Of a stretch of DNA of 64,000 nucleotides, positions 39,697 through 58,942 are shown piece after piece. Origin of the DNA: Methylophaga nitratireducenticrescens (GTDB taxonomy: Bacteria; Pseudomonadota; Gammaproteobacteria; Nitrosococcales; Methylophagaceae). Where the stretch lies: assembly GCF_000260985.4 (NCBI RefSeq), contig NC_017857.3, positions 310,001-374,000 of the forward strand, read 5' to 3'. The notes under the pieces were generated by a model that was not told where the DNA came from, did not search any database, and saw only the letters and a program-made list of their open reading frames with translations. The number at the start of each line of letters is the position of its first letter. Within the stretch, counting starts at the first letter, position 1. Made by a program: the position numbers and the translations under genes.

Positions 39697-39779
<83 letters not shown>

Positions 39780-39783
<4 letters not shown>

Positions 39784-40925
39784 GCGGTTAGCTGAATTTC
39801 AGCTGGCCGCTTTTTTTTGCCTGCGGGAATTTTGCGGGAGTCCAGTCCCACAGGTTTCCTGAATAGCACGATTTTTGGATGACCACCAAAGGCATTTGGG
39901 CATAACTTTTCCACTTCCCTGAGTAGCCCCGTAATACTGTGCTGACAATATATATCAGTAGTCCTTTTGGGTTTATGGCCAAGCAGATCACGACAGTCCT
40001 CAAAAGAAGATCCCAAAGCTCTGAGACGTGTGCCGAAGGTGTGTCTCAGATCGTGTACTCTCAGCTCAGGCAGTTCAATCTTCTGTCGAGCGTTTTGCCA
40101 TCCCGTATTATTCATCTGGTAGAGCCCATTGCCACCATACGAAAAGACGAACTCAGGATGCTTGCCTCGCTGCCGCTCTACGATGTCACGGGCAATCCTG
40201 TTCAAAACGATTAATCGATCACGCTTCCCCTTAGTAAAAGCTTTGGGGATAACAAATACCGATATATTGAGTCCTGGAACAGTAACTTCCCAATGCCAGC
40301 GCAGATGACAGATCTCCTGATCTCGACAGCCAGTATTAAGTACAAACAGACTCATTTCTTTTAAATGTGTCGGCAACGCATTGAGTAAAGCCTTTTCTTC
40401 CTCCCAAGTAATGGGATAAGGCTCACGTTGTTGTTCTACTGGCAGCAGCTTTATAAAAGGCGCTTTAAGTAGCCAAGTGAGATTGTTTTCATCAATGAGC
40501 TCTCTCTCAGCAACATTCAGCACCCGCCTAACGATCTTCAGGCCATGATTAATCGTGTTAGTGGCTAGGTTAAGTTCCATACGCATAGCCACCCATTCAT
40601 CAAGAGTGTCACGATTAATCTCATCAAGCGGAAGATGACCAATATAGGGCACGACCTGCTTGAGTTTACTAATAGCACTATCGATAGACTTCTGATCGGC
40701 ATATTTTTTTATATACGCAGCAGCAGCCTCTTCAAATGTTCTCTTTGGGCGGATACCGAAAACGCGTGCTTGTCGGTCTGCTTCGATGAGGCAAATTAAT
40801 TGAGCTTCCGCCTCTGCGAGTGAACTTGTTGCACAGCTTTTGCAAATACGTCGCCCACCGATCCATTTGTCGATGTGCCAGATTCCATCTCTGTTAAAGA
40901 GCCCTGCGGGTTTTTTTCGTCCCAT
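39780..40925 (-). CDS. Tyrosine recombinase integrase of the element
   Basis: The 381-residue phage-type integrase performs site-specific integration into the tRNA 3' end. It has an N-terminal arm-binding part (WHIDKWIGGRRICKSC), a core-binding domain (about residues 60-150) and the catalytic domain with TGCRDQEICHLRW (Arg), the Lys strand, HDLRHTFGTRL (His, Arg), LLGHK and TDIYCQH (Tyr). AGGAGATGAATT precedes the ATG at 40925. Its first 130 nt overlap the AlpA-like gene in another frame, and its stop lies inside attL. The tail of about 35 residues past the Tyr is basic. Confidence 0.95.
39784..39818 (+). terminator. Element-borne terminator behind tRNA-Ile2
   Basis: GCGGTTAGCTG-AATTT-CAGCTGGCCGC pairs with one mismatch region and is followed by eight T residues. 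It terminates the rpoD-tRNA transcript after integration and overlaps the 3' end of the integrase gene on the other strand. Confidence 0.8.
39820..39836. repeat. 17-bp repeat near left end (possible integrase arm site)
   Basis: CCTGCGGGAATTTTGCG at 39820-39836 recurs exactly at 58772-58788, each close to an attachment repeat but at different distances (37 bp inside attL, 98 bp inside attR). It could be an arm-type recombinase site or a remnant of earlier integration. Confidence 0.5.
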
Positions 40926-41364: not shown

Positions 41365-41464
41365 ATATACCTCTAATTATTGTCAGGGCGGGGCGTAACT
41401 ACGACCATAAAAATAGATTCCGCAGCGATGTATTTTTAGCCCCGCATGATTTTATATAGCCAAA

Positions 41465-41538
41465 TAAATACATTGATATACATTGTATATTGACATTGTA
41501 AGTCTAGTCAAATTATAATGTATATCAATGTATATTTA
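41465..41538. promoter_or_regulatory. Large inverted repeat, probable operator of the HTH gene
   Basis: The left arm at 41465-41489 and right arm at 41514-41538 are inverted copies sharing the core ACATTGATATACATT. The left arm also contains the odd palindrome TATACA-T-TGTATA (41477-41489). Related TGTATA motifs occur upstream of the homing endonuclease gene. The arrangement suits autoregulation of the divergently placed genes. Confidence 0.6.
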
Positions 41539-41550
41539 GAGCTAAGAAAT

Positions 41551-42421: not shown

Positions 42422-42787
42422 ATGACTGCTGATAAAAAAAAGAAGGAAACTAAAGATAGACAGCTCAAGGTCAGGCTTACCGAAAACGAGTTTGCCAAGC
42501 TTAAAAAGGCAGCGGATGCTGATGGTGTAACGTTGGCCAATTATGCCCGCAGACAGCTTGCCCTTGATACCTTAAAGCGTAGCCCTGTAGGCAGGATGAC
42601 CTATCGTAAATATACACCTGTCGATCCTGACTTATTACGTCAGATCAGCCGGCTCGGCAACAACCTTAACCAGATAGCTAGAAGGGTCAACCAGAACGAT
42701 TTCGACACATCGCTTGATTTATTAAAGACCTTGCTCACCATCGAGCGCAGGTTGAAACGGGTACAGGATGCACATCAAATTTCTTGA
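42422..42787 (+). CDS. mobC: Mobilization accessory protein MobC
   Basis: MobC binds oriT and helps the relaxase open DNA. The 121-residue protein has an N-terminal ribbon-helix-helix region after a Lys-rich start (QLKVRLTENEFAKLKKAADADGVTLANYARRQL, split) and the family hallmark LLRQISRLGNNLNQIARRVN. Its last 20 nt overlap the relaxase start. CTGGAGAG precedes the ATG. It follows the oriT directly. Confidence 0.92.
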   Translation: MTADKKKKETKDRQLKVRLTENEFAKLKKAADADGVTLANYARRQLALDTLKRSPVGRMTYRKYTPVDPDLLRQISRLGNNLNQIARRVNQNDFDTSLDLLKTLLTIERRLKRVQDAHQIS

Positions 42788-44573
42788 ACATGGTACCGGT
42801 CAAGTTCTTGATGCCGTGGAATACCTGTTGGCTGTCACTGATGCGAAAGGTGAACGCAGAGCTGGCGTTGAGATTCGTCGTGGCGATTTATACCAGTTAG
42901 CTTCACTGGCAGACAGTTTGGACTTCAAGTATCGCTACAGCAGCGCGGTGGTTTCCTTCCACCCTGACGATATGCCCACCGACGAACAGCTTGAGACGCT
43001 TACCGACGAATTTGAGAGGACGGCTTTTGCCGGGATGGATCCCGAACAATATTCTTGGGGCGTAGTAAGGCATGATGACAATCTGGGAGGCTTTCATCTT
43101 CATATCATTATTGCCCGAGTCGAGCTGAGAACGGGTAGGTCTTTCAATCCTGCGCCACCGGGTTGGCAAAAAACCTTCGATCCACTGAGAGACCACTTCA
43201 ACACAAGGTATGGATGGAAAAGTCCTGACATCGATGCTCACCCGGAAAATGCGAGGGTAATTCAGCCGGGACACAGGGTATACCGGGATGTCAGAACTGC
43301 CGTGACCAGCGGCCTCGAAGATCCGAGGCAGGCCATTATTGAATATGTTCAGACGGGCATCGTGAGCGGCTTAGTCAAAGACCGTAAGGACATGATTGCT
43401 TACTTGGAAGAAGCAGGATTCGAAATATCCCGTGCCGGTAAAAATTACATCACCGTAATGGATCCCGATCTTGAATCAGGTAACCGTTGGCGATTAAAAG
43501 GAGCCCTATTTGATGAAAACTTTGACTTTGACCGAACGCTTGCAGCAAAAGCAGCAAGAAGAAATGGCGTTGATAGAAAACCAGACTCGGCAGCAGCTGC
43601 AACATTTTACAGACAGCTTGAAAAAAAACGTGGGGAGCGAGCTCAATATAATCAAAAAAAGTATCAGCAATCAAAAAACAGTGCTACTCGCCGAAATCAA
43701 CGAGCTATCAAATCTCAGACAGAAGTGGCACAAGAAATGGAGGCTGATTTGGCTTATGCCGCTCTTGGTGAGTCTCTCCCTGCTGTTGTTGCCAGTACTG
43801 GTGATTCAGTACGAAATTTGGCAACTGGAGCAACTCAAAGCCGAGGTTCAGAATCAGAACCGGCTGTTGAGTCAGCTCAAAGACGCGCAAAAAAAACTGA
43901 AAGTCAAGAATTGCGACGGCAGGACTTGCGTGCAAATCGACGAAACAGCCCCGCAGTACAACAACGGTTACCGGATCCTTCGGCAGTAAAGAGAGACGTA
44001 CCCACTCAACCACGTAGACAAAAACAGCTGTTTGGCGAAATCCTGCCTTTCAATGATATTCAACACATTGATTTGAATAAGAGGCTTTTGCGATTTAATG
44101 ATGGAAGCCAAATCGAAGTAGGTAAAACAAGCCTTACAGCAAAAAAGATGAGTGACAAGAAAGCCGCAATACGCTTGATTGCCGGCTCAAAGGCCAGGCA
44201 TTGGCAAGTGATCAAACTTAGCGGCAGTCTGGCATTTTTCGAGCTGGCTGCCGAACTTGCTTTTAAAGAAGGCATTGATGTTGTTCCCCTCACACCCCAA
44301 CAGAAAATGATTATGGAGAAGATGTATGAGCGAGAACGTATTAACCGAGCTCGAGCGGCAATTGCTGAGACAATTACAAAGTCAGAGCGACGCCTTGATG
44401 TTATCAAATCAGCGTCTCAGCGATCTCGAGAGTTGCATGCACGTTTTACTAAAGAAGTTGGACGAAATTGGTTTAGTCAACCTGGAAATGGATTGATTGA
44501 TTCTATATGGTTTAATAAGGAACAAGCATCACAGATACAAAAATCACAGCAACAGAAGAAGACTATTTCATAA
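42768..44573 (+). CDS. mobA: MOB-P family relaxase with C-terminal LPD7-like domain
   Basis: The relaxase nicks oriT, stays bound to the 5' end and pilots the strand into the recipient. The N-terminal third has the relaxase fold: SSAVVSFHPDDMP, and the metal-binding histidines in VVRHDDNLGGFHLHIIIAR (about residues 102-118). A catalytic Tyr is likely among those near residues 19-57. The C-terminal part (about residues 430-520) resembles the LPD7 domain of ColE1/RSF1010-type relaxases (LLRFNDGSQIEVGKTSLTAKK). The middle is low-complexity because it also encodes the nested mbeB-like gene in the +1 frame. Confidence 0.9.
   Translation: MHIKFLEHGTGQVLDAVEYLLAVTDAKGERRAGVEIRRGDLYQLASLADSLDFKYRYSSAVVSFHPDDMPTDEQLETLTDEFERTAFAGMDPEQYSWGVVRHDDNLGGFHLHIIIARVELRTGRSFNPAPPGWQKTFDPLRDHFNTRYGWKSPDIDAHPENARVIQPGHRVYRDVRTAVTSGLEDPRQAIIEYVQTGIVSGLVKDRKDMIAYLEEAGFEISRAGKNYITVMDPDLESGNRWRLKGALFDENFDFDRTLAAKAARRNGVDRKPDSAAAATFYRQLEKKRGERAQYNQKKYQQSKNSATRRNQRAIKSQTEVAQEMEADLAYAALGESLPAVVASTGDSVRNLATGATQSRGSESEPAVESAQRRAKKTESQELRRQDLRANRRNSPAVQQRLPDPSAVKRDVPTQPRRQKQLFGEILPFNDIQHIDLNKRLLRFNDGSQIEVGKTSLTAKKMSDKKAAIRLIAGSKARHWQVIKLSGSLAFFELAAELAFKEGIDVVPLTPQQKMIMEKMYERERINRARAAIAETITKSERRLDVIKSASQRSRELHARFTKEVGRNWFSQPGNGLIDSIWFNKEQASQIQKSQQQKKTIS
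43513..43989 (+). CDS. MbeB/MobB-like mobilization protein nested in the relaxase gene
   Basis: Entirely inside mobA in the +1 frame, 158 residues. It has an N-terminal coiled coil LTERLQQKQQEEMALIENQT and FTDSLKKN like the MbeB N-terminal family, then a strong membrane helix (IWLMPLLVSLSLLLLPVLVI, about residues 78-97) and a second coiled coil with LEQLKAEVQNQ. AAAAGGAG lies 9 nt before the ATG at 43513. ColE1 mbeB and RSF1010 mobB are also nested in their relaxase genes, and tether the relaxosome to the membrane or stabilise it. The same role is inferred. Confidence 0.8.
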   Translation: MKTLTLTERLQQKQQEEMALIENQTRQQLQHFTDSLKKNVGSELNIIKKSISNQKTVLLAEINELSNLRQKWHKKWRLIWLMPLLVSLSLLLLPVLVIQYEIWQLEQLKAEVQNQNRLLSQLKDAQKKLKVKNCDGRTCVQIDETAPQYNNGYRILRQ

Positions 44574-44994: not shown

Positions 44995-46083
44995 TCAAAT
45001 TTCGGCCAAAAACCCGATGCCCCTTGCTTTTGGCTTGGTTAATGAGGAGGAGACATCTTTTGGTAGAATCACGATTGGTTTAACTTTAGCTTTTGAACGC
45101 TGTACTGCATTCGCCATAGCATTTTCAAGCTGGATCCTTGCTATACGAGGAGATACAGTTACAAGCTTATTAATAACTTTTAAATCGAGCTCAACAGCAA
45201 AGTGTTCTCCCCAAGGTTCCAATAACAGCTCAGTGTAAATAGAGCGGACAATGGCTATTGATTGCTCTTTTGTTGGCAGAGGGATCGTTATCTCTAACAT
45301 CCGAGATCGAATCGGTTCTGGGATCCTTTCGGGATAATTAGCAGACGCTATCCAAATGATTGAGCTGACATCAAAAGGAATTTCCAGGTACTCATCAATA
45401 AATCGTTTGGCGGTGTGCTTTTCTAAAAGACTGTACATTGGACCCATTGGATCGTGTCTTGTATCAACCGATGCTTTGTCGAGCTCATCCAACATAATAA
45501 TGGGATTGGCAAAACGGCTAGATCGTATGCTGTTGCTGATAAAACCCGGTTTGCTGTCACTCCATGAGCTGGCACCACCTGCAACGACAAAGCCTGATGA
45601 CACTGTAGAGTAATCGAGCGAATAAAAGTCTGTACCTAATACTGATGCCAGCTCGGAAATAAATCGTGTTTTGCCTACACCAGGAGGCCCAGACAGCAAC
45701 AGGGGAGGCATTGAAAAAAGGTTGGGCGTCACTAAGCTTCCCAGTAAACATGCATTCTTACAAATATTGATAACGTCACTGAAATTACCAAACCGTTTGG
45801 CTAGGTCATCAAGCTTATGGATTACCTCAGGTTCGGGAGCAGCTAAAGGCTTATGATTGGGCTCTTTTAGTAGAGCCCGCAGAATCATTTTTCGTTTGCC
45901 GCTGGTTTCATTGTCGTACACACGATTGACTAGGGATTTGTCATAAATAACTTTATGGTTTTTTGCTGACAAGGCTGCTTGTACCAACATCTCATCATAG
46001 GATTCTTCATCAAAAAACATGGGAGGTTGAGTCTTATTGGCTTCTGCTTTATCAATTAATTTATGTAATGTGGACTTATCCAT
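44995..46083 (-). CDS. Lon-like AAA+ ATPase without protease domain
   Basis: The product of about 362 residues has a helical N-terminal part (about 1-115) and an AAA+ module similar to that of Lon: Walker A SGPPGVGKTR (131-140), pore segment SSGFVVAGGASSWSDSKPG, Walker B IIMLDELDKA (195-204), sensor 1 IWIASANYPE and arginine finger EPIRSRM. The Lon Ser-Lys peptidase domain is absent; the protein ends after the lid. The ATG at 46083 has GAGA at 7 nt; 46110 is an alternative. It sits between the small unknown gene and a LAGLIDADG gene. A remodelling or anti-defence role is conceivable. Confidence 0.82.
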   Translation of the reverse strand: MDKSTLHKLIDKAEANKTQPPMFFDEESYDEMLVQAALSAKNHKVIYDKSLVNRVYDNETSGKRKMILRALLKEPNHKPLAAPEPEVIHKLDDLAKRFGNFSDVINICKNACLLGSLVTPNLFSMPPLLLSGPPGVGKTRFISELASVLGTDFYSLDYSTVSSGFVVAGGASSWSDSKPGFISNSIRSSRFANPIIMLDELDKASVDTRHDPMGPMYSLLEKHTAKRFIDEYLEIPFDVSSIIWIASANYPERIPEPIRSRMLEITIPLPTKEQSIAIVRSIYTELLLEPWGEHFAVELDLKVINKLVTVSPRIARIQLENAMANAVQRSKAKVKPIVILPKDVSSSLTKPKARGIGFLAEI

Positions 46084-46143
46084 AATTATTCTCAGTAAAA
46101 TTGTTTGCATACCTCAACCGCCCGGTTGGGGTATGTGAACAGC

Positions 46144-46752: not shown

Positions 46753-46962
46753 TTTTTTGTCAAGTACTTTATAATTAACTTTATGTTTGATACAAAACAA
46801 TTCTAATAATCCATCAGGGATAGTTCTTGCTGTAGGTTTATCAGTATCACGCTCCCAACTAATCCAAGTTTGGCGTTCAACGCGGACTGATTCTGCTGCT
46901 TCAGCTTGGGTTAAACCTAGCTCTTTACGTAATTTTTTTAATTGGTTCGGCTCGACCGGCAT
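46732..46962 (-). CDS. XRE-family HTH regulator
   Basis: The 76-residue protein is almost entirely one Cro/C1-type HTH: LKKLRKELGLTQAEAAESVRVERQTWISWERDTDKPTART (split), followed by a short strand end KVLDKKVYIVYH. It opens the minus-strand run XRE - endonuclease - AAA+ - small protein. The ribosome site is weak (AGG at 11 nt). It is the last AT-rich gene before the abrupt rise in GC at about 47.0 kb. Confidence 0.8.
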   Translation of the reverse strand: MPVEPNQLKKLRKELGLTQAEAAESVRVERQTWISWERDTDKPTARTIPDGLLELFCIKHKVNYKVLDKKVYIVYH

Positions 46963-47104
46963 TATGTATAAGGCCTAATTCATGATTAATTAAATTATAC
47001 TCGCACACACCGCTTCGCACTGCTTGAAAATATCCCTGGAACGGCAGGACCGCATCTGCCTGACCTAGGGCCTGCGTGACCGATTTCTGCTAATCCTAAA
47101 TGGC

Positions 47105-47400
47105 TTACTGTGTGCCATGGGTGAAGGTTGTCTGGATCTTGATGGCGACTTGCGTCGCCGCCCATCTGGTGCTGGAACTGACGCTAGAAGGCCTGCGCGG
47201 GCAGCATGGCCAACTCCTGCCAGTTCCGGGTCTTGAGCAGACTTCCAATTTCGGCGCCAGACTCGGGAATGTTTTTCGCTTCCAGCACGCGTGGAGTTCT
47301 CCAGCCATTGCTGGCCGTTTTCATGCATCAAGCGCTGTAGGCGCAGTTGCAGGTTCGCCTTGAAGATGTTGATGGGGATGGTTTCATTGCTCTTGGTCAA
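47105..47400 (-). pseudogene. Decayed phasin-family gene
   Basis: Phasins coat polyhydroxyalkanoate granules. Reading the minus strand from a TTG at 47400 gives ETIPINIFKANLQLRLQRLM and NGQQWLE as in phasins; a shift to another frame continues VLEAKNIPESGAEIGSLL, TRNWQELAMLPAQAF, then a TAG where a Trp is expected; a third frame ends QVAIKIQTTFTHGTQ. Two frameshifts and one stop are needed. It lies 44 nt behind the yhhJ-like gene on the same strand, so it was probably the last gene of that operon. It marks the decayed edge of the GC-rich cargo. Confidence 0.65.
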
Positions 47401-47443
47401 ACTCCTTGCTGGGATTGAAATGCCCAATCGGGCAGTCAAACGA

Positions 47444-48574
47444 TTAGGCCATCTGGCCGATCGTTTTGCGGAAGCGTGCTAACGACAGGAAAAACAGAAC
47501 CGTGCCGATAAGGGCCAGCGCCAGGAACGGCTGCCATACCGTCTCCAGGCCGGCGCCCCGGTAGAGGATGGCCTGGCTCAGTTCCACGAAATGGGTGGTG
47601 GGTGCGATCAGCATGATGTTTTGCACGATCTCGGGCATGCTTTCGCGCGGTGTGGCGCCACCGGAAAGCATCTGCAGCGGCATGATGGTGAGCATCATCA
47701 ACATGCCGAATTGGGGCATGTTGCGCGCCAGGGTGGCGATGAAGATGCCCATCGAGGTGGTGGCGAACAGGCTAAGTGCCGCGCCGGCAAGGAACAACGC
47801 AATAGAGCCATCGATGGGCACACCAAGGACACCGCGCACCATGAGATTGAGAGATAGGAACGCGGCGACCAGCACGATCAGGCCCATCGACCAGACCTTG
47901 GAGAGCATGATCTGCCCGGGAGTCACGGGCATCACCAGCAGGTGCTCGATGGTACCGTGCTCGCGCTCCCGGATCAGTGCTGCGCCAGTCAGGATGATGG
48001 ACAGCAGCGTGATGTTGTTGATGATCTCTACCACCGAGCCGAACCAGGCCTTGTCGAGCGCGGGGTTGAAGCGCGCGCGCAATGCCAGATCCACGGGTAG
48101 CGCCTCGGTGCCGCGGTAACGTTTGACGAACTCATTGACCTCACCTGTGAAGATCTGTTGGATGTAACCGCTGCCGGTGAAGGCCTGGCTCATGCGGGTG
48201 GCGTCGACATTGAGCTGCACTGCGGGTGATCGCCCCGCCAGCACGTCACGCTGGAAGTTGAGCGGAATGACCAGAGCGAAGGTGTACATCCCCGCGTCCA
48301 TGCCCGGATCCACATCCCCATAGTCGACCATGGCCGGTGGCGTGAACTGCGGCGGGTAGAAGGCCGAGGCAATCCGCAGGGACAGCGCCGAATTATCCTC
48401 GTCGACGATCGCGATCGGCGCGTTGTGCAGCGTCTCCGGCATGGACGTGGCTGAGGTGTAGACTGACGCGGTGAACACATAGGCGATGAGTACGAGCATC
48501 ATCGGATCGCGCCACAGACTCCACAACTCCTTGACACCGAGGTCGTAGATATTGGCTAGGTTTCTTCTACGCAT
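47444..48574 (-). CDS. ABC-2 type permease, YhhJ-like
   Basis: The 376-residue inner-membrane protein has one N-terminal helix, a large periplasmic domain (APIAIVDEDNSALS to about residue 170) and five C-terminal helices with EREHGTIEHLLVMPVTPGQIMLSK, the coupling signature of ABC-2 exporters. It is the partner of the RbbA-like protein 1 nt upstream, the same order as E. coli yhiI-rbbA-yhhJ. GC-rich codon use contrasts with the mob genes. Substrate unknown; such systems export drugs or hydrophobic molecules through a trans-envelope channel. Confidence 0.88.
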   Translation of the reverse strand: MRRRNLANIYDLGVKELWSLWRDPMMLVLIAYVFTASVYTSATSMPETLHNAPIAIVDEDNSALSLRIASAFYPPQFTPPAMVDYGDVDPGMDAGMYTFALVIPLNFQRDVLAGRSPAVQLNVDATRMSQAFTGSGYIQQIFTGEVNEFVKRYRGTEALPVDLALRARFNPALDKAWFGSVVEIINNITLLSIILTGAALIREREHGTIEHLLVMPVTPGQIMLSKVWSMGLIVLVAAFLSLNLMVRGVLGVPIDGSIALFLAGAALSLFATTSMGIFIATLARNMPQFGMLMMLTIMPLQMLSGGATPRESMPEIVQNIMLIAPTTHFVELSQAILYRGAGLETVWQPFLALALIGTVLFFLSLARFRKTIGQMA

Positions 48575-48575
48575 C

Positions 48576-51338
48576 TCAGCGCTCCTGCTTCTTGAGTAGC
48601 AAAACGGCTGCGCCGAGAATGACCGGGACCGACATGAGCATCGACCACAGCGGCCCTGTCAGATCGGCCAGGCCGAGCGCTTTGCTGAACACGCCGCGAC
48701 TGATGGAGATCATGTGCGTGGCGGGATAGATCTCGCCGATGAACTTGCTGGAACCTTCGAGCGAGGACACAGGATCGATCAGACCGGCGAACTGGGTGGC
48801 CGGTATCAGAGTGCCGATCATGGCAAAGAACATGGCCGCGATCTGGCTGCGGGTGACGGCCGAGGCGAGCAGCCCCATTCCTGTCGCAGCGAAAGAGAAG
48901 ATCAGCGCGGCCAGCGCCAGGGTAAAAAAGCTGCCCATGACTGGCACACCGAAGGCAGTGACCGCGAGCAGCGTCATAAGCAGGAAGTTCACCATGGCCA
49001 GGCCGACATAGGGTAGTTGCTTACCTAGCAGGAACTCGATGCGCGTAACCGGCGTCACGTAGAGATTCGTGATCGAGCCGGTCTCCTTCTCGCGCACCAC
49101 CGCAAGCGCGGTCAGCATCGCCGGCAGCATGAGCAGCAACAGGGGAATCACGGCCGGCACCATGGCCGGCAGGCTCTTGACATCGGGGTTGTAGCGAAAG
49201 CGAGTCTCGACGCTGGCATTTGCGGTTATGCTGGGGCCGCCGCGCTCGCTGGCCTGCGCCAACAGCCAGTGCTGGTGCATGCCCTGAACGTAGCCCTGGA
49301 TGGTTTCCGCGCGTTGCGGCATGGCACCATCGATCCAGGCGCCGATCTGCACGTTCTGACCTCGCAACACATTACGGCTGAAACCAGGGGGGATTTCGAT
49401 GGCCAGCGACAGTTCGCCGCTGCGCATGCGCCGGTCGAGATCGTCGTAGTCGACGATCGGCGCATGCTCGGTAAAGTAGCGTGAGCCGGCCAGGTTCAAT
49501 GTATAGCTTTGACTGAGCGTGGTCTGATCCCGATCAAGCACCGCATAACTCAGATCCTCGACGTCCATGGTGATGCCGAAGCCGATCACGAACATCAGTA
49601 GCAAAGAACCGCCCAGCGCCAGGGTAGCGCGGACCGGATCCCGCTGGAGCTCCAGGGTCTCGCGCCACAGATAGCTGAACATGCGCTGCAAGCTGAATCC
49701 GCCAGTGCGGTGCCGACCGTGTTCAGTGTGCATCGCTGATAGCTGCTTCTCGTGATTGTCGGCCTCAGGCTGGCTGGGCGGGGCGGCTGTACCGCCCTCG
49801 GCTTCAAGGAGGTAGCCGATAAAGGCCTCTTCAAGGGTTTCAGCACCGCGTTTCTCGACCAGTCTGGCGGGCACGTCGCTATCAAGCACCTTGCCCGCAT
49901 GCATCATCGACATGCGGTCGCAGCGATCAGCCTCGTTCATGAAGTGGGTGGAAATGAAGACCGTCACCCGGTCTCGCCGCGACAGTTCGATAAGCAGCCG
50001 CCAGAATGCGTCACGTGCCACCGGATCGACGCCGGAGGTCGGCTCGTCCAGAATCAGCAGCTCGGGCTTGTGCACCATGGCGACCGCCAGCGACAGGCGC
50101 TGGCGTATGCCCAGAGGCAGACTGGCCGGCAGGCTGTCGAGGACTTCCACTAGCCCGAAGCGCTCCACCATCTCATTCACGCGGCCGGGAATGTCCTTCG
50201 GGGGCACGCTGAAGAGCTTGGCGTGCAATTCCAGGTTCTGTCGTACCGTGATTTCGCTATAGAGCGAGAACGCTTGCGACATATAGCCGACACGGCGACG
50301 GGTGTCGAGGTCATGCGGATCCACTTCGTGGCCGAATAGCGAGGCCCGTCCCTCGCTCGCTGGCAACAGCCCGGTGAGCATCTTCATCGTCGTGGACTTG
50401 CCGCAACCGTTGGAGCCGAGGAAGCCGAAGATTTCGCCGCGTCGGATGCGAAAAGAGACGCCGTCGACGGCAATGAAGTCGCCAAAGCGCATGGTCAGCC
50501 TCTCGGCCTCGATGGCAATATCGTCCGCGCCGCCCTCTGGCAAGGGTGGAATGACTACCGCTTGATGTCCGCGCTTTTTCTCTTCCGGGAGCAGGCGGAT
50601 GAATGCCTCTTCCAGGTTCGGGCTATTTGTTTTTTCCAGCAATTCCTTCGGCGTGCCGGTGGCAAGGACCCTGCCGTCGTCGATGGCGGCCAGCCAGTCG
50701 AAGCGTTGTGCCTCATCCATGTAGGCGGTGGCCACGATCACGCTCATGCCGGGACGATCGGCGCGGATGCGCTCGATAAGATCCCAGAACTGCGCGCGCG
50801 CCAGCGGATCCACGCCGGTCGTTGGTTCATCGAGAATCAGGAAATCCGGGTCGTGAATCAGCGCACAGCACAGGCCGAGTTTCTGCTTCATGCCCCCGGA
50901 AAGCTTGCCTGCAGGACGTGACAGGAACTTGTACAAGCCGGTAGCCTCGGTGAGCTCATCGATGCGCTGGCGGCGTTCTGCGGGAACATGACCGAACAGG
51001 CGCGCAAAGAATTGCAGATTCTCCTCAACCGAGAGGGTCGGATACAGGTTCTTGCCCAGCCCCTGTGGCATGTAGGCGATGCGAGGGCACACCTGCTTGC
51101 GATGGGGCTTGCTGGCCATGTCGCCGCCCAGCACCTCGATCGTGCCCTCCTGAATGATGCGCACACCGGCCAGTAGCGAGAGCAGGCTAGACTTACCTAC
51201 GCCGTCAGGACCGATCAGGCCGACCATCTGTCCGGCGGGGATGTCCAGGTCGATGCCGTCCAGGGCCATGACGTTGCCGTAACGTAAGCGCACCTGACAC
51301 ACGCTTGCAACGGTCACGGGTTGTGCACTGTGGCTCAT
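48576..51338 (-). CDS. RbbA-like fused ABC exporter: two ATPase domains plus permease
   Basis: The 920-residue protein joins two nucleotide-binding domains and an ABC-2 permease. Domain 1 (about 12-245) has Walker [10 protein letters not shown] and signature [11 protein letters not shown] with [11 protein letters not shown]. Domain 2 (about 275-500) has [21 protein letters not shown] (a degenerate signature) and [12 protein letters not shown]. The permease (about 555-920) has [24 protein letters not shown]. This layout is that of E. coli RbbA (YhiH). It follows the HlyD-like gene by 3 nt. Export through the adaptor and outer-membrane factor is inferred from the cluster. Confidence 0.92.
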
Positions 51339-51341
51339 ACC

Positions 51342-52421
51342 TTACTCCGGCACGCGAAGGGACAGGTTCTCTGGCCACTCGGCATTGGCGTCGAGCTTGA
51401 CCCAGGCCACTCCGGGCAGCCCGGTCTTGACCTGATCCAGATGTTCACGCAGCAGATCCTGGGAAATCTGCCCGCGCACTCGGAACATCAGTTTCTGCCG
51501 CTCGCTCGCGGTTTCAACCGTCTTAGGGGTAAATTGCGCCACACTGGCGACGAAGGAAACAGTGGCTGGAATAACAAAATCCGGCGCGGCATCCAGAATG
51601 ATGCGTACCTCGGTGCCAAGCGCTACGCGGCCGGCCACGGTTTCGGGCAGGAAGAAGGTGATGTACACGTCCGACAGGTCGATCAGGTTCAGGACACGTC
51701 CGCCGGCTCCAAGCACCTCACCGGGTTGCGCCACACGAACCTGAACTCTTCCGTCGCGCGGCGCGCGCAGTTCGCTGTCGCGGATGTCCGCTTCGATGCG
51801 ATTGATGCTGGCCGTGGCAGCGGATACGCTGGATCTCGCGCCGACAAGGTGCGCCTTGGCGCCCTCGACCGCGGCGCGGGCAGCGGCAGTCTGTGCTTTG
51901 CTTGCCGCGAGCGTCGCCTGTGCACCCCGTACGCGTGCTAGGTCATCGTCCAGCTCCTGTAGCGAGGCGGCACCCTCTTGGGACAGGGTCTGCGAACGTT
52001 TCAGCCGCCGTTGCGCAGCGTCGAGCTCCGACTCACGCTGACCAACGAGGGCCTGCGCAGCGACAACGTCGGCTTCGTGCAGCGCCACCTGTGCCTGCGC
52101 TGCGGTCACCGAGTGCTCGGCCTGCTGGCGCATGGCGAGGGCCTCGTCGCGCTGCGCTTCCAGCGTTTCCAATTGCATCTTGGCCAGTGGCTGGCCCGCC
52201 GTGACGAAGTCGCCTTCACGCACGAGGATGTCTTCGATACGACCGGGCAGCTTGGTGGCGATGTCGATCTCGGTAGCTTCAATGCGGCCATTGCCGTTGA
52301 CGAACCCATCACCGGGCCCGCTGTCTGCAAGCTCTGTCCAGCCCCAGTAGGCCAGCGCGATAACAACCCCTGCAGCGGCAGCGACCAGGAGTTTTTTCTT
52401 GAGAGAGGATGAGACAATCAT
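51342..52421 (-). CDS. HlyD-family membrane-fusion adaptor, YhiI-like
   Basis: The 359-residue periplasmic adaptor has one N-terminal membrane anchor (about residues 9-28), a lipoyl half-motif GRIEATEIDIATKLPGRIEDI, a long Ala/Gln-rich coiled-coil hairpin (about 85-190) and the second lipoyl half LRAPRDGRVQVRVAQPGEVLGAGG. It bridges the ABC permease and the outer-membrane channel. It is 14 nt after the outer-membrane factor gene and 3 nt before the RbbA-like gene. Confidence 0.92.
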   Translation of the reverse strand: MIVSSSLKKKLLVAAAAGVVIALAYWGWTELADSGPGDGFVNGNGRIEATEIDIATKLPGRIEDILVREGDFVTAGQPLAKMQLETLEAQRDEALAMRQQAEHSVTAAQAQVALHEADVVAAQALVGQRESELDAAQRRLKRSQTLSQEGAASLQELDDDLARVRGAQATLAASKAQTAAARAAVEGAKAHLVGARSSVSAATASINRIEADIRDSELRAPRDGRVQVRVAQPGEVLGAGGRVLNLIDLSDVYITFFLPETVAGRVALGTEVRIILDAAPDFVIPATVSFVASVAQFTPKTVETASERQKLMFRVRGQISQDLLREHLDQVKTGLPGVAWVKLDANAEWPENLSLRVPE

Positions 52422-52435
52422 AGGTTTCGCGTGCC

Positions 52436-53929
52436 TTAACGGGTTGATGGGATGGAAGCGGGCGTCGAGGTCGCATCCTGCGCCTGGCCAGTTGCGGCGA
52501 GGGTGCCGCCGCCGAGCGCGGCATATAGGGCCACCTGGCTGGATAGCAGCGCACGGCGGGCCTGTATCAACTGCTGTTCGGTATCAAGCAAATCGCGCTG
52601 AGCGTCCAGCACCTCCAAGAAAGCGGCCGAGCCGTTGTCGTAGCGCAACTGGGCCAGCCGTGCGCGTTCGTTCTGCGCTTCCAGATTGGCTCGCTGGATA
52701 GTCAACTGCTCAGCCAGCCAGTACTTGGCGCTCAGCGCATCGGCCACTTCGCGAAAGGCCGTTTGAATAGTCTTTTCGTAGCCGGCAACCGCGATGTCAC
52801 GACGCACTTCGCTCAGTTCCAGGTTTGCGCGCCGCCGCCCGCCATCGAAGATGGGCAGCGACAAGGTAGGCATGAAGATCCAGGCGCGGCTGCCGGAATC
52901 GAACAGGCCGTTAAGATCGGAACTCGCCGTGCCGAGGCTGCCGGTCAGCGCGATGCGCGGGAAAAACGCCGCACGGGCCGCGCCGATATTGGCATCGCCG
53001 GCACGTAATTTGTGTTCGGCGGAAATGATGTCCGGGCGACTGACCAAGAGCTCCGAGGGCAGACCGGCCCTGAGTTCGGCCAGCACCGTTGTTTCATCGA
53101 AGGGTGCCTTGGCGGGCAGCGAACCAGGATCGGCGCCTACCAGCAGTGCCAACGCGTGCAGTTGCGTGTCGCGAGCTTGCTTAAGCCGGGTTAGCAGCGT
53201 CTGAGCCTGGTTCAGCAAAGTCTGGACTTGAATGAGATCCAGCTTCGAAGTCGAGCCGACTTCAACACGCCGCCGGAAAATGCGATAGGACTCCTCGCGG
53301 GTCACGACGGTTTGCCGCGCAATGGCCACGCGTTCGTCTATCTCGCGCAAGCCCAGATAACCGTCGGCCACCTGGGCGATCAGCGCCAGGTGGACGGCCT
53401 GGCGGGCCGCGTCGGAAGCCAGCCAGCGTTGCAGGGCAGCGTCTTCCAGATTACGGACCCGGCCCCACAAATCCAGCTCCCAAGTGCTCAAACCCACCTC
53501 GGCCCGGTACTCGCCGCCAACCTGCGACCGGCCTGAAACGTTCAGATCGCCAGGGATGCGTGCGCTTCCACCCTGGGCCCCGACGCGTACGGCAGGAAAT
53601 CGATCCGAGCGCTGAATACGGAATGCCGTGCTGGCTTCCTCGACACGCAGCGCGGCCAGGCGTAGATCGCGGTTGTTCTCCAGAGCTGTCTTAATGAGGC
53701 GTTGCAGCAAAGGATCCGTGAAGTACGCCTGCCAGGCAAGCTCTCCCCCGCGGACACCCTCGGTGCCCGATTCAATATGATCAGGCCAAACCTCGGGTAC
53801 CGGCAGCGGCGGGGTGTAAGGAGCAGGAGCGAGCGACATGCAGCCAGTAAATATGACGGCGCTCAACGCCAGCGAGAAAGTGCGCAGCCTGAACTCAGGA
53901 AATAAGGGAAGAGCTGGGGGCATAGTCAC
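52436..53929 (-). CDS. Outer-membrane efflux lipoprotein (TolC/NodT family)
   Basis: The 497-residue protein has a lipoprotein signal with lipobox VIFTGC (Cys near residue 30) and two OEP repeats of the TolC type: DPLLQRLIKTALENNRDLRLAALRVEEA and later RRANLELSEVRRDIAVAGYEKTIQTAFREVADAL (split). It forms the outer-membrane channel for the exporter. It is the first gene of the minus-strand operon and is divergent from the TetR gene. The Pro-rich stretch after the lipobox fits NodT-type channels. Confidence 0.92.
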   Translation of the reverse strand: MTMPPALPLFPEFRLRTFSLALSAVIFTGCMSLAPAPYTPPLPVPEVWPDHIESGTEGVRGGELAWQAYFTDPLLQRLIKTALENNRDLRLAALRVEEASTAFRIQRSDRFPAVRVGAQGGSARIPGDLNVSGRSQVGGEYRAEVGLSTWELDLWGRVRNLEDAALQRWLASDAARQAVHLALIAQVADGYLGLREIDERVAIARQTVVTREESYRIFRRRVEVGSTSKLDLIQVQTLLNQAQTLLTRLKQARDTQLHALALLVGADPGSLPAKAPFDETTVLAELRAGLPSELLVSRPDIISAEHKLRAGDANIGAARAAFFPRIALTGSLGTASSDLNGLFDSGSRAWIFMPTLSLPIFDGGRRRANLELSEVRRDIAVAGYEKTIQTAFREVADALSAKYWLAEQLTIQRANLEAQNERARLAQLRYDNGSAAFLEVLDAQRDLLDTEQQLIQARRALLSSQVALYAALGGGTLAATGQAQDATSTPASIPSTR

Positions 53930-54219
53930 ATTCCGTAGGGGGGGCTAGCTGAATGGAGCCTGGCTGTATAGGAGTAGCCACCCACGTACAGCGTTGCGTC
54001 GGCACGTCAATCATCAACAAACGCTGTAATCGAGCGCGACCTTGATGGTCGTTTACGTCACGTATGGCCTTTCTCGAAAGAGTTATCAATCTCACGCCAC
54101 TTCCTTATTAAGGTCTGCACCGATGCCTCTAGCGGCCGATCGCTGGAGGCTCTTACTGCTTCATTTTTCAGGGTTTCGGGTTCGTATACATCCCTGCAAA
54201 TCGTACATGCTTCAAAACA

Positions 54220-54237
54220 AACGACCGGGTGGTTGTT
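54220..54237. promoter_or_regulatory. Candidate TetR operator in the divergent cargo promoter region
   Basis: AACGACCGGGTGGTTGTT is an imperfect palindrome (AAC-x-ACC...GGT-x-GTT) of the kind bound by TetR dimers. It lies in the 472-bp gap 53930-54401 between the outer-membrane factor and TetR genes. The rest of that gap shows no gene; TACAAT at 54249-54254 may be a -10. Confidence 0.5.
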
Positions 54238-54401
54238 TTTTATTTTACACGGTACAATCCCATAAACGCAACTAGCAGTTCGCCAGGCGCTACATACCCG
54301 TAAGTTGGAATTGATTAGCCTGGGCTGATCAGGCTTTCATGGTGGAACCGGTGACCAGCCCATGGCACAATCCAACAGATTTCTGAACAGGGAACTTTTG
54401 A

Positions 54402-55040
54402 ATGCCAACCAAGAAAAATAATGACGTACCAGAAAAGCGCCGCTACCTATCCTCTGCGGCCAGGAAAGGGGAAATACTGGACGCGGCCCTGATCGAGTTT
54501 GCGGATCGGACATACAACGCCGTGTCGATGGAGCGTCTGGCGGAATGTGCGGGATTGTCCAAGGCAGGCATCTACGCCCACTTCAACAGTAAGGAAGAAA
54601 TTTTTCACGCCATGCTCGAACGTACGACAAAGCAGATTTGCGATTTCCAGGGCTGGCTCCCGGATGAAGTTCTGACGTTGCCAGAACTGGTAGAAGTCTA
54701 CCTAGATCGCCTGTATGCGACTTTTAGCTCCCCTGCCACGATGTCGATCTACCGGTTGCTTCTGGCCGAAAGTTCCAGAACGCCAGACTTGGTAAGGAGT
54801 TGGCATGAGGAGGTTGCGTGCGGATTACGGGAGCGGGCACAGCTTATTATCCAACGTTACATAGAGCTTGGAGTCATTCGCCCAAGCGTCTTGACCGAGC
54901 ACTTTTTCCCACTCGCACTCGCTCCCGCACTGCTGTGGCTGAACTCCTTAATGATATCCAGGGGCACCCCTTCCATATCGCTCACGCAAACACGGGATGC
55001 GCATCGGCAACTGCTGTTTGAGCTTTTGCAACCTAGATGA
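54402..55040 (+). CDS. TetR-family repressor of the cargo module
   Basis: The 212-residue regulator has the TetR HTH: ARKGEILDAALIEFADRTYNAVSMERLAECAGLSKAGIYAHFNSKEEIFHAML (split), residues about 20-70, and a variable ligand-binding C-terminal domain. It is transcribed away from the exporter operon and overlaps the DUF4105 gene by 4 nt (ATGA). By position it probably represses both divergent operons and is released by the exported or hydrolysed compound. Ligand unknown. Confidence 0.92.
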   Translation: MPTKKNNDVPEKRRYLSSAARKGEILDAALIEFADRTYNAVSMERLAECAGLSKAGIYAHFNSKEEIFHAMLERTTKQICDFQGWLPDEVLTLPELVEVYLDRLYATFSSPATMSIYRLLLAESSRTPDLVRSWHEEVACGLRERAQLIIQRYIELGVIRPSVLTEHFFPLALAPALLWLNSLMISRGTPSISLTQTRDAHRQLLFELLQPR

Positions 55041-56080
55041 GCAGGGAAAGGCAAAAGACCAGATGCCCCCTTATGCGATTGGTGACCGGCTTTGCGGTGC
55101 TGATGCTGACTGCGTGGGGGTTACTGGCTCTATGGCATCAGATGCTGCAGCCGGCTTTCCGCATGATCACCCTTGTGCTCTGGGCGGCAGCCGGGTTATC
55201 GATGGTGGTGGCGTCGACGGGCCTGCCCAGCCGGAAGTCACGCAATCTCACGGCAATGGCGTTCGCAAGTGCCGTAGCTCTCCTGGCGGTGTGGTGGAAC
55301 ACTCTTAAGCCCTCGCACCACCGTCTATGGGCTGACGATGTCACCCAATTGCTGGAGGCCAGGGTCGACGGCGACTATGTTCAACTGAAAAATGTACGCA
55401 ACTTCGAATGGCGCAGTGAAACCGACTACACGCCTCGTTGGGAGAGCCGCACGTACGATCTGGCCCGCCTGCGTAGCGCCGACTTGCTACTTTCTTACTG
55501 GATGGGGCCGCATATCGCTCACGCACTGGTGTCGTTCGGCTTCGATGATGGTGAGCAGGTAGTGTTCTCACTGGAAATACGCAAGGAGCGCCACGAGTCC
55601 TTCTCCGCAGTCGGTGGATTCTTCCGTCAGTTCGAGCAGATCCTGGTAGCCGCCGATGAGGGTGACATTGTGCGTACACGCAGCAATGCGCGAGGCGAGC
55701 AGGTGTATCTCTATCGGTTGCAGATGAGTCAGGTGAAAGTCCGCGCATTGTTTCTGGAGTATGTGGATGTGGCCAATGAACTGCGGCGGTCTCCCCGCTT
55801 TTACAACACCTTGACCAGTAACTGCACGACCATCGTGTTCGAGCTAGCTCGGCTCATATCGCCAGCGTTGCCGGTAGACTATCGCTTGATGCTGTCGGGA
55901 TACTTTGCGGAATACGTCTACGACCTGCACGGATTGGTACCTGATTATAGCTACGCAGAACTGCAGGCACTGGGGTACATCAACGAACGCGCCCTTGCTT
56001 CCGACACATCGGCGGCCAATTTCTCGACTTCAATTCGGCAGGGTGTGCCTGGCGTGCCGGCCAACGAGGTGTATCCATGA
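55037..56080 (+). CDS. DUF4105 (Lnb N-terminal periplasmic domain) membrane protein
   Basis: The 347-residue protein has two or three N-terminal hydrophobic helices (about residues 12-85) and a periplasmic DUF4105 domain. Within it GPHIAHALVSFGF and NTLTSNCTTIVFEL supply a His and Cys that suggest a papain/NlpC-like fold, an idea supported for the family only by homology. It overlaps tetR and the hydrolase gene, each by 4 nt, so the three are co-translated. A lipoprotein- or acyl-processing role at the envelope is plausible. The family is often named after the N-terminal domain of Lnb acyltransferases. Confidence 0.82.
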   Translation: MSRERQKTRCPLMRLVTGFAVLMLTAWGLLALWHQMLQPAFRMITLVLWAAAGLSMVVASTGLPSRKSRNLTAMAFASAVALLAVWWNTLKPSHHRLWADDVTQLLEARVDGDYVQLKNVRNFEWRSETDYTPRWESRTYDLARLRSADLLLSYWMGPHIAHALVSFGFDDGEQVVFSLEIRKERHESFSAVGGFFRQFEQILVAADEGDIVRTRSNARGEQVYLYRLQMSQVKVRALFLEYVDVANELRRSPRFYNTLTSNCTTIVFELARLISPALPVDYRLMLSGYFAEYVYDLHGLVPDYSYAELQALGYINERALASDTSAANFSTSIRQGVPGVPANEVYP

Positions 56081-58026
56081 GGTTCCTGCGGCCCTGCTTC
56101 CTTGTGGCATGGATGGCCATAGCCCCGCTGTTGCTGGGAGGCTGTTCGATTCTGAGCGAATTCGGCCCAGTGGTGCAAATTCATACGCTGACGGCCGAGG
56201 AGGCCATCGAACTCAAGCGCAGCGACATCCTGACACGCGGCAAGCTCAGCGATGCGACGACCCAGACCATCAGGGTGGCGGCCCTAGATGCGCAAGCTTG
56301 TGCAAAACCAGTCTCAGCGAATTGCGTTGAAGCCCTAGTCGAGGTGAAGGGGGTGGCCACGGATCGACGCTTGGCTGCGCTGTCCGAACTGTGGCTGGCG
56401 CAGGCGCAAGCCATGAAGCCCGGATCCGAGCAGCAAGCCGCCTGGTTTGAAACCATCCGTTACGCCTATGCCTACCTCTTTCTCGGCGACCATACCCCAG
56501 GAGAGCGAGCCTTCGAGGATCGCCAGACACAAGTACGGGACTGGTATAACTATGCTGTCGAACGTGCCGCCACCGCGATGTTTGAATTTGGGCAACAAAC
56601 GGCTACGCAGTTGCCACCGCAGCCCCAACGAAACATCGCAGGTTGGGAATTGCACGTGGATATGCGCAGCGCGCGTTTGCCGGGCAGTACGGCGGTGCCA
56701 GCCGAACTTTTGCCAGCCTCGTCGTTGTCTTTCCGCGGACTGCGCAGCCTCTACCGCCGCGACGGTTTTGGAGCCGAGTTGGTGGCAGTCATGCCGGACG
56801 AACCCTTGACTACTGCCGCCACTCGGGATGGCCGTCCAGCTGTCAAACGCAATCAGCAGCCTCTACCCTGGAGCGAGATGCCCGCGCCGTCCATGACGGT
56901 TCTGTTGCACCCGGATGGAGACGACCTGGACAGCGTGTTGCAAACCCGTACGGTCCGTTTGACGGTGCATGACCCCTATGTGGAGTCGGCCATCATGATG
57001 CGCGGTCAGCGCGTACCCCTGGCGGCTAATTTCACCGCCGGTTACGGCGTATGGTTGGCTCGTGCCAAATTCAAACGGCAGTCGCTCCGCAGCCTGCTTG
57101 GACGTGAAGGTGGCATTGACCGCCCTCACGTCTACCTGATGCAGCCCTATGATCCGAACAGACGTGTCATCGTCATGCTCCACGGACTGGCCAGCAGCCC
57201 GGAAGCCTGGGTGGAACTCGCCAACGAAATCCTGGGAGATGAGTTGCTGCGCCAGCACTACCAGCTCTGGCAGGTCTACTACCCGACCAATATGCCGATC
57301 GCATTGAACCACGCAATGATTCGCAGAACGCTAAAGGATACGCTGGCGCATTTCGATCCTTCCGGCCAGTCACCTGCCTCGTCCGACCTCGTACTGGTAG
57401 GGCATAGCATGGGCGGTGTCATTGCGCGTTTGATGGTATCGTCAACCGACCAGTCGCTGGTGCAGCTGGCCAGAGACCGCGGACGGCTAACACTGAAGCA
57501 GATAGAACGCATAGCTCCGATGTTGAGTTTCGAGCCCTTCCCGCATGTCAGCCGTGCCATCTTCATCGCAGCACCGCACCGGGGCACATCAGTCGCGGGT
57601 GGGTGCCTCGGGCGCTGGATGGCGGGATTCATTCACTTTCCCGTTACGGTGCTCGAAGAACTTGCCCACACACTGGTGCCCAATGCGGCGGCCAGTAGCC
57701 ACCAAAGCCTGGGGTATATCCCCAATAGCGTCGACAACCTCGACGAGAACGATCCTTTCTTGCGCGCGGCTGCGGGCTTTCCCATCTCTACCCAGGTGCG
57801 TTATCACTCGATCGTGGCCCAAGCTAATCCCGATGTGGCCCTCGTTGATTCTGATGATGGTCTGGTGCCTTACCGCAGCTCTCACCTGCCTGGCGCGCAG
57901 TCCGAGAAAGTCATCATTTCGGGGCACAGCGTGCAACAGAATGCGTCAGCAATACTGGAGATCCAGCGCATTCTGAAAGAGGATATGACCCAACAGAAAG
58001 AACCCCTCAACTCAGCGGTGCGCTAG
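56077..58026 (+). CDS. Lipoprotein alpha/beta hydrolase (PGAP1/lipase-like)
   Basis: The 649-residue protein has a lipobox LLLGGC (Cys near residue 24), a non-catalytic N-terminal half of about 330 residues, and a C-terminal alpha/beta hydrolase: VIVMLHGLASSPEAW (oxyanion), LVLVGHSMGGVIARL (nucleophile Ser, about residue 448), VDSDDGLVPY (Asp) and IISGHSVQQN (His). It is probably an outer-membrane-anchored esterase or lipase. It is the last gene of tetR-DUF4105-hydrolase and its start overlaps DUF4105 by 4 nt. Substrate unknown. Confidence 0.88.
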   Translation: MRFLRPCFLVAWMAIAPLLLGGCSILSEFGPVVQIHTLTAEEAIELKRSDILTRGKLSDATTQTIRVAALDAQACAKPVSANCVEALVEVKGVATDRRLAALSELWLAQAQAMKPGSEQQAAWFETIRYAYAYLFLGDHTPGERAFEDRQTQVRDWYNYAVERAATAMFEFGQQTATQLPPQPQRNIAGWELHVDMRSARLPGSTAVPAELLPASSLSFRGLRSLYRRDGFGAELVAVMPDEPLTTAATRDGRPAVKRNQQPLPWSEMPAPSMTVLLHPDGDDLDSVLQTRTVRLTVHDPYVESAIMMRGQRVPLAANFTAGYGVWLARAKFKRQSLRSLLGREGGIDRPHVYLMQPYDPNRRVIVMLHGLASSPEAWVELANEILGDELLRQHYQLWQVYYPTNMPIALNHAMIRRTLKDTLAHFDPSGQSPASSDLVLVGHSMGGVIARLMVSSTDQSLVQLARDRGRLTLKQIERIAPMLSFEPFPHVSRAIFIAAPHRGTSVAGGCLGRWMAGFIHFPVTVLEELAHTLVPNAAASSHQSLGYIPNSVDNLDENDPFLRAAAGFPISTQVRYHSIVAQANPDVALVDSDDGLVPYRSSHLPGAQSEKVIISGHSVQQNASAILEIQRILKEDMTQQKEPLNSAVR

Positions 58027-58886: not shown

Positions 58887-58942
58887 ACTCATAATCCCTT
58901 GGTCCCAGGTTCGAGTCCTGGTGGGCCCACCAATTAAATCAA
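58887..58942. repeat. attR: 56-bp direct repeat, right copy
   Basis: Identical to 39728-39783. It contains the 3' 46 nt of tRNA-Ile2, including the T arm and CCA, plus ATTAAATCAA. There is no 5' half, so it is not a second tRNA gene. Beyond it host sequence resumes. Confidence 0.95.

Follow-up and report, generated by a model that had tools for sequence, protein, structure and literature searches.

Exporters of the RbbA class are known from Escherichia coli, where RbbA occurs with the adaptor YhiI and the permease YhhJ; the class has long been named for a ribosome-bound ATPase. We analyzed a stretch of 64,000 nucleotides from Methylophaga nitratireducenticrescens (the window; contig NC_017857.3, positions 310,001 to 374,000), which contains a GC-rich block of seven genes. 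This block encodes an RbbA-type exporter and, divergently, a TetR-family regulator, an Lnb_N (old DUF4105) protein and a lipase-type hydrolase. As in E. coli, adaptor and permease genes are adjacent to rbbA, and the protein scores above the curated cut-off for RbbA; unlike in E. coli, the window adds an in-operon outer-membrane factor, the divergent TetR and two candidate envelope-lipid enzymes. Among the papers listed by a search for RbbA, YhiI and YhhJ, none named any of them in its title or abstract.

A second E. coli pump, YbhGFSR, is paired with the TetR-family regulator CecR. It shares with the window locus an ABC-2 pump, an HlyD adaptor and a TetR-family regulator (YbhFSR is treated in excerpts of PMC9951867), but it belongs to another pump family, and the window TetR has no CecR_C match. 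In Bacteroides, DUF4105 is cited as a lipoprotein N-acyltransferase, Lnb (Armbruster 2024, as cited in excerpts of PMC12994826). The window protein is comparable to Lnb, as presented in these excerpts, in its Lnb_N domain above the Pfam cut-off and its invariant His and Cys. However, the domain leads the protein in Lnb, to which acyltransferase activity is attributed, whereas it follows three predicted helices in the window protein. Because of this difference in domain order, we did not call the window protein Lnb. In addition, excerpts of PMC6515984 report a phosphoketolase, PhaC2, phasin, universal stress proteins and an MBL-fold hydrolase as induced by microoxia in Bradyrhizobium. Comparable genes, for polyhydroxybutyrate (PHB), Pta-AckA and phosphoketolase, stand beside the pump in relatives of the window block; the window differs in that this arm is lost, and the pump and lipid enzymes are additional to such sets. 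A literature search covering few subscription papers found no published description joining these parts.

Organization of the seven-gene block

The block and its features are as follows.

47003..58017: GC-rich cargo block, 81-89% DNA identity to close loci, defined by composition and blastn
47024..47400 (-): phasin pseudogene, three frames with stops in blastx; the intact relative matches PF09361
47444..48574 (-): YhhJ-type ABC-2 permease, PF12698 E 2.6e-37
48576..51338 (-): RbbA-type fused ATPase (two ABC domains) and ABC-2 permease, NF033858
51342..52421 (-): HlyD-family periplasmic adaptor, YhiI-like, PF16576 and PF13437
52436..53929 (-): outer-membrane factor, NodT group, TIGR01845 380.2 bits against 210.05; PF02321
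54217..54236 (+): putative TetR operator, conserved 20-base imperfect inverted repeat
54402..55040 (+): TetR-family regulator, PF00440 E 1.1e-15
55037..56080 (+): Lnb_N (old DUF4105) protein, PF13387 E 8.7e-48
56077..58026 (+): lipase-type alpha/beta-hydrolase lipoprotein, PF12697

GC content in 1-kb windows rises from 0.393 at 46.0-47.0 kb to 0.585-0.640 at 47.0-54.0 kb, is 0.515 at 54.0-55.0 kb (the divergent spacer and tetR) and 0.56-0.61 from 55.0 to 58.0 kb, and falls to 0.411 at 58.0-59.0 kb. Overall, the block has about 60% GC versus 32-44% in the 2 kb on each side. The composition switch at about 47.0 and 58.0 kb, claimed in a preliminary description made from the sequence alone, was therefore present when measured. 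Homology confirmed the limits of the block at 47,003 and about 58,017, with the left edge some 100 bases further out than first described: in blastn against the close loci (defined below), the match starts at 47,003 in 13 loci and ends at 57,986-58,017 in most.

All seven genes are open reading frames and form two divergent units, yhhJ-rbbA-yhiI-omf on the minus strand and tetR-Lnb_N-hydrolase on the plus strand; coordinates and family profiles agree with the initial gene assignments. The same is true of the tight spacing. tetR/Lnb_N and Lnb_N/hydrolase overlap by 4 nucleotides (ATGA), and the gaps between exporter genes are 1 (yhhJ/rbbA), 3 (rbbA/yhiI) and 14 nucleotides (yhiI/omf), suggesting that the exporter genes are co-transcribed. 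This predicted unit contains the complete set of a tripartite ABC exporter, that is, ATPase/permease, periplasmic adaptor and outer-membrane factor. RbbA covers positions 1-909 of 909 of NF033858 with 1565.7 bits (cut-off 1050), and the outer-membrane factor has a lipobox-type Cys near its start, read by eye. ABCA lipid transporters were the top solved relatives of RbbA; this reflects the ATPase domains and was not used to argue for lipid transport. Gene content, open frames, linkage, mobility, the conserved operator-like site and folds were obtained by computation. The module is real, mobile, conserved and built from known families.

Proposed function

We tentatively prefer the reading that the block represents the envelope portion of a larger mobile cluster for stress and storage, trimmed to a core of seven genes, in which TetR-controlled remodelling of envelope acyl lipids is coupled to export. 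In support of it, all seven genes stand together in 14 of 18 close loci, RbbA-type exporters are found at eight more distant hydrolase loci and the hydrolase at a single randomly sampled RbbA locus, two unlike pumps accompany the hydrolase, LpxR is in all 12 contiguous arms, the core is open here without its arm, the Lnb_N protein has an invariant His and Cys, the hydrolase has a lipase fold, and an operator-like site recurs among the loci. For the TetR ligand, the substrate, the common control of both units and the direction of transport we propose the following. TetR would shut both divergent promoters from one operator and release on binding a hydrophobic or acyl compound that arises under envelope or energy stress. 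The Lnb_N protein would lie in the inner membrane with a periplasmic catalytic domain, and the lipase lipoprotein would probably be located in the outer membrane; these enzymes would cleave or transfer acyl chains on envelope lipids or lipoproteins. What RbbA, YhhJ, YhiI and the outer-membrane factor pump across the two membranes would be either this acyl product or the hydrophobic compound acting as trigger. In close relatives, the PHB, acyl-phosphate and LpxR genes by the pump may serve to store acyl carbon or return it to use and to trim lipid A (LpxR is a lipid A deacylase family), and the window host would have lost the storage arm and kept the envelope half.

Of the readings considered, a mechanism acting on envelope acyl lipids is the most likely, and its chief competitor is the efflux of foreign compounds. 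A more specific version appears rather unlikely: a horizontally spreading envelope acyl-turnover system in which the Lnb_N protein and lipase release or move acyl chains, the RbbA-class pump exports the product, and the full form adds PHB storage and LpxR trimming. If true, RbbA would gain a physiological substrate class. The combination of one pump, two candidate lipid enzymes and one repressor yields a short list of testable substrates.

Distribution of the block

A hydrolase profile found 381 relatives in named genomes, and the co-occurrence counts given here refer to the best 80 of the 381. Eighteen loci (L numbers denote loci) with hydrolase identity of 85-90% were treated as close. All seven genes were present in the same order in 14 of these, whose hosts include Achromobacter, Thauera, Variovorax, Pigmentiphaga, Brachymonas, Malikia, Zoogloea, Pseudomonas putida and Stutzerimonas; the two divergent units do stay together, as had been supposed. 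Three close loci are cut short by contig ends (L057 inside rbbA, L052 and L060 before the exporter), and a Thalassospira locus (L051) has about 2.4 kb of other DNA ahead of tetR. Damaged copies also occur: L066 has split rbbA and hydrolase genes, L058 has a split yhiI, and L069 lacks the start of tetR. The spread at 85-90% hydrolase identity among distant proteobacteria, with or without storage genes, reveals a portable core.

In 12 of the 18 close loci, the block is followed by an open reading frame that clusters with a TraI_2 conjugation protein, implying that conjugative elements are the likely vehicle of the block. The TraI_2 assignment comes from a family scan of the L061 copy only, near which a TraG_N protein was found. 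None of 72,556 plasmid records held at least 80% of the block in megablast. The best one, Pseudomonas veronii LT599585, covered 44% of it at 74.8% identity, with the hydrolase match limited to about the first 280 residues, and no hydrolase relatives were found on viral contigs. The check proposed in the preliminary description, whether the seven genes travel together, came out positive for the close loci; carriage of the whole block on plasmids was rejected.

The storage arm in relatives

In relatives, the exporter operon runs on past yhhJ into genes for phasin and PhaB. Further genes of this arm, in the order of Zoogloea L133, encode DUF3141, MaoC-Pta, a short-chain dehydrogenase, AckA, GltS, polyhydroxyalkanoate (PHA) synthase, LpxR, PRPP synthase, phosphoketolase, a beta-CASP nuclease, a nucleoside/AMP phosphorylase and LysR. 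Left extensions were taken at 14 of the 18 close loci (all except L052, L057, L060 and L067). PhaB, MaoC-Pta, AckA, GltS, PHA synthase and LpxR were all present in each of the 12 contiguous extensions, a count that excludes two extensions on a contig apart from the hydrolase (L137 for L066, L143 for L051). The P. putida locus L066 is a trimmed form, with a phasin stub and GltS after yhhJ and the arm on another contig. In a Burkholderiaceae metagenome-assembled genome (L139), the genes for PHA synthase, phosphoketolase, MaoC-Pta and nucleoside phosphorylase are split, which may reflect decay or assembly error.

In the window, the phasin pseudogene is all that remains of the arm, and it marks the cut. 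The phasin remnant noticed earlier is real and is explained by the PHB arm next to yhhJ in relatives; the lipid theme proposed with it was also supported.

Distant relatives and a second exporter

Sixty loci have hydrolase identity below 60%. An RbbA-type exporter is present in 8 of them and a different ABC exporter in 9; 26 have Lnb_N without exporter, 1 has TetR without exporter, and 16 have no such partner. The eight RbbA-linked loci (hydrolase identity 50-58%) show three layouts; arm genes are near five of them (L071, L076, L078, L108, L109), and none were found near L091, L118 and L122. The pumps at the nine loci with a different ABC exporter were read as YbhF-like, so two unlike pumps accompany the same enzyme. 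PHA synthase, Pta, AckA, phosphoketolase or DUF3141 genes occur nearby in 8 of these 9 loci, compared with 5 of 16 partnerless and 5 of 26 Lnb_N-only loci. In a second cluster kind (L097, L088, L094, L095, L100, L102), this other ABC exporter accompanies the same hydrolase and is divergent from genes for PHA synthase, a phasin match, PhaB, universal stress protein, Pta and the hydrolase. A type IV coupling protein follows the cluster in L097. In Luteimonas (L075), TetR and hydrolase genes stand by an arm with LpxR and phosphoketolase, with no exporter in the DNA examined.

These neighborhoods could also indicate a hydroxyacyl exporter, that is, a pump secreting 3-hydroxybutyrate oligomers or hydroxyacyl lipids that are made with the PHB genes and processed outside by the lipase. 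In the extended relatives, the genes immediately downstream of yhhJ are those for phasin and PhaB; on the P. veronii plasmid, the PHB and pump genes make up a single run in the same direction; and PHA synthase, a phasin match and PhaB accompany the second exporter type. Yet the class I PHA synthase model had no match in the window genome, where all seven genes are open, and L118 and L122 have the exporter, Lnb_N and the hydrolase with no arm genes found; we regard this explanation as highly improbable. Given that the seven genes are open while the arm is gone and a PHA synthase match is missing, the core probably works without PHB.

Alternatively, the locus may be a TetR-controlled multidrug or solvent pump, whose accompanying enzymes restore or strengthen the envelope or degrade toxicants of the ester type, with no physiological lipid exported. 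A TetR with an adaptor and an outer-membrane factor is the usual efflux layout, and the best models for the outer-membrane factor are efflux ones. Several carriers were isolated from sludge or polluted sites. This reading does not, however, account for the recurrent association with PHB, Pta/AckA and LpxR genes or for the pairing of the hydrolase with two unlike pumps, and we consider such a pump somewhat unlikely.

Features of the two enzymes

The Lnb_N domain scores 162.6 bits versus a gathering threshold of 22.2. In the structural model, it spans residues 131-287 of 347, behind three long N-terminal helices; this is not the N-terminal position that its Pfam name implies. His162 and Cys263 are invariant in 25 of 25 aligned sequences (L081 was excluded for a stop in its translation), suggesting that they are the catalytic pair. 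In the hydrolase, the lipobox Cys23 is invariant in the alignment, and Ser444, Asp594 and His617 are invariant in 30 of 30 sequences. Its model (mean pLDDT 75) has a lipase fold, with Z up to 17.4 from residue ~320 on; the structure comparison barely covers the N-terminal part (~1-260).

Linkage, regulation and selection

Several findings weigh against an acyl-lipid mechanism shared by the exporter and the enzymes, and most of them concern linkage. The hydrolase was without any exporter in 48 of the 80 loci as scored (three of these are close loci), and distant forms with TetR and exporter lacked Lnb_N in 6 of 6. In a random sample, RbbA above the NF033858 cut-off was found in 39 of 398 genomes of the phylum, the window genome included; the 43 matches gave 40 loci after exclusion of the two in the window genome itself and of G635:C8, and some of the stretches stop at a contig end. 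Adaptor and permease adjoin RbbA in 40 of 40 loci, and a close outer-membrane factor in 5 of 40, a sixth (L189) having a 25% one. The hydrolase was within ~8.5 kb of RbbA in only one of the 40 (L152). Here, the exporter stands beside genes for TetR, Lnb_N and the hydrolase, and the C domain of this TetR is of CecR type.

In a tree of 65 RbbA proteins, which took 9 of the 18 close loci and the window, all 20 hydrolase-linked proteins fell into one branch of 24 (SH-aLRT 99, quick method); the sampling carries a bias, since the hydrolase was the route to most linked loci, and P. veronii was scored as linked despite its truncated hydrolase. The same branch includes four unlinked exporters (L160, L165, L169, L049), and the three genomes and one plasmid carrying them had no hydrolase match. 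The exporter-hydrolase pairing is clade-specific and not obligatory, and it looks old. The preliminary description had named independent occurrence of the two operons in nearly all genomes as the result that would speak against its proposal; this does not apply to the linked clade (14 of 18 close loci carry all seven genes) and nearly holds for RbbA at large (1 of 40). The gene neighborhood points to export as the role of RbbA. A second RbbA exporter (63% amino acid identity) is present in the window genome (L036 6740-11682; G000:C1 at ~1.755 Mb), with no match to the window outer-membrane factor, TetR, Lnb_N or hydrolase in the surrounding 20 kb.

With regard to regulation, a TetR-type palindrome had been described in the divergent spacer. 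The best match to it is the site at 54,217-54,236; by score, the best imperfect palindrome in the spacer is a different one (54,124), whose score was reached by 51 of 200 shuffles. Palindrome score alone, not being above shuffles, was rejected as operator evidence. The site at 54,217-54,236 was found with at most 3 mismatches in 16 of 17 close loci scanned, a count that is partly built in because the pattern was written from the same alignment; the chance expectation in the window is 0.04 at 3 mismatches. The site is apart from tetR in L051 and missing in L069 together with the first part of tetR. Relative to the window, the spacer is 58-60% identical in 12 of 15 aligned relatives, more similar in L053 and L066 (80%) and less so in L069 (43%), so that conservation of the site in mostly dissimilar spacers is better evidence than palindromy. 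Of 9 distant loci scanned, 4 also have the site immediately upstream of tetR (at most 4 mismatches; no chance rate was computed). A scan of the divergent spacer found no sigma-70 promoters. We infer that TetR binds this site and controls both sides.

The fold of the Lnb_N protein is another such point. The top structural row for its catalytic part was TseH (6v98; Z 6.9, root-mean-square deviation 4.5, 157 residues), which is barely above unrelated rows, and Foldseek gave no PDB match with E of 0.001 or lower for the model. The TseH row would be in line with excerpts of PMC12994826 (2026), in which DUF4105 is described as a permuted NlpC/P60 family that has a phospholipase effector as its sister and is akin to TseH. 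The Lnb_N profile produced a single row against solved sequences (E 0.084), taken as chance. Pairwise dN/dS between the window and Thauera L053 is 0.09-0.29 for the seven genes; these values average the whole divergence and cannot date selection to after the loss of the arm.

Finally, the storage arm is also compatible with a low-oxygen regulon; the genes would then be neighbors as a matter of timing. Under such an explanation, the genes form a low-oxygen or energy-stress bundle, co-induced on mobile elements with no shared substrate. The arm is filled with the same kinds of genes as those for the microoxia-induced Bradyrhizobium proteins, as given in the PMC6515984 excerpts; genes for universal stress proteins were also found beside the second exporter type and close to some RbbA loci. 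On the other hand, the seven-gene core has its own TetR and conserved site, and it stays open where the metabolic arm is gone; a bundle of this kind seems unlikely.

The carrier element

The block lies in an element with the following features.

39697..39773 (+): tRNA-Met (CAT), integration site, by ARAGORN and Rfam tRNA
39728..39783 (+): left attachment repeat, 56 bp, the last 46 bases of tRNA-Met plus 10
39780..40925 (-): tyrosine integrase, PF00589 E 1.5e-16, directly beside the tRNA gene
42768..44573 (+): MobA/VirD2-type relaxase, PF03432 E 2.3e-10
44995..46110 (-): AAA ATPase, carrier backbone, PF00004; 74% copy elsewhere in the genome
46144..46653 (-): LAGLIDADG protein, carrier backbone, PF00961 E 8.6e-8; 78% copy elsewhere in the genome
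58080..58285 (-): putative IS30-like transposase fragment, by motif in a six-frame reading, at the right cargo edge
58887..58942 (+): right attachment repeat, 100% copy of the left repeat

The carrier is a 19.2-kb integrated element in which integrase, relaxase and flanking attachment repeats are all present. Among plasmid records matching the relaxase, 3349 of 3510 were typed mobilizable, and a Pfam scan of the longer reading frames of the element showed no transfer apparatus. From these features, the element is probably mobilizable. The block thus lies inside an element bounded by the tRNA-Met repeat, which the preliminary description had not noticed; its account of the block as cargo was borne out, in the sense of horizontal acquisition.

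The tRNA-Met gene is an integration hotspot. The site has been reused in 4 of 13 congener stretches (L192, L194, L195, L196), which have a second copy of the tRNA end 6.8-10.6 kb away; the inserts had no match above 50 bits to the window integrase or relaxase. Eight of the other nine stretches are below 5 kb, too short to exclude inserts.

A second copy (64-78% amino acid identity) of the LAGLIDADG, AAA and 136-amino-acid backbone genes was found at L042 8604-10663 (G000:C1 at ~1.13 Mb), with no match to the window integrase or relaxase within the surrounding 20 kb. A small XRE-like helix-turn-helix open reading frame, read by eye at ~46783-46963 (-), adjoins the left cargo edge. In addition, an imperfect inverted repeat with 38-nucleotide arms (79%) at 41457-41544 lies around the start of a 244-amino-acid open reading frame of the element.

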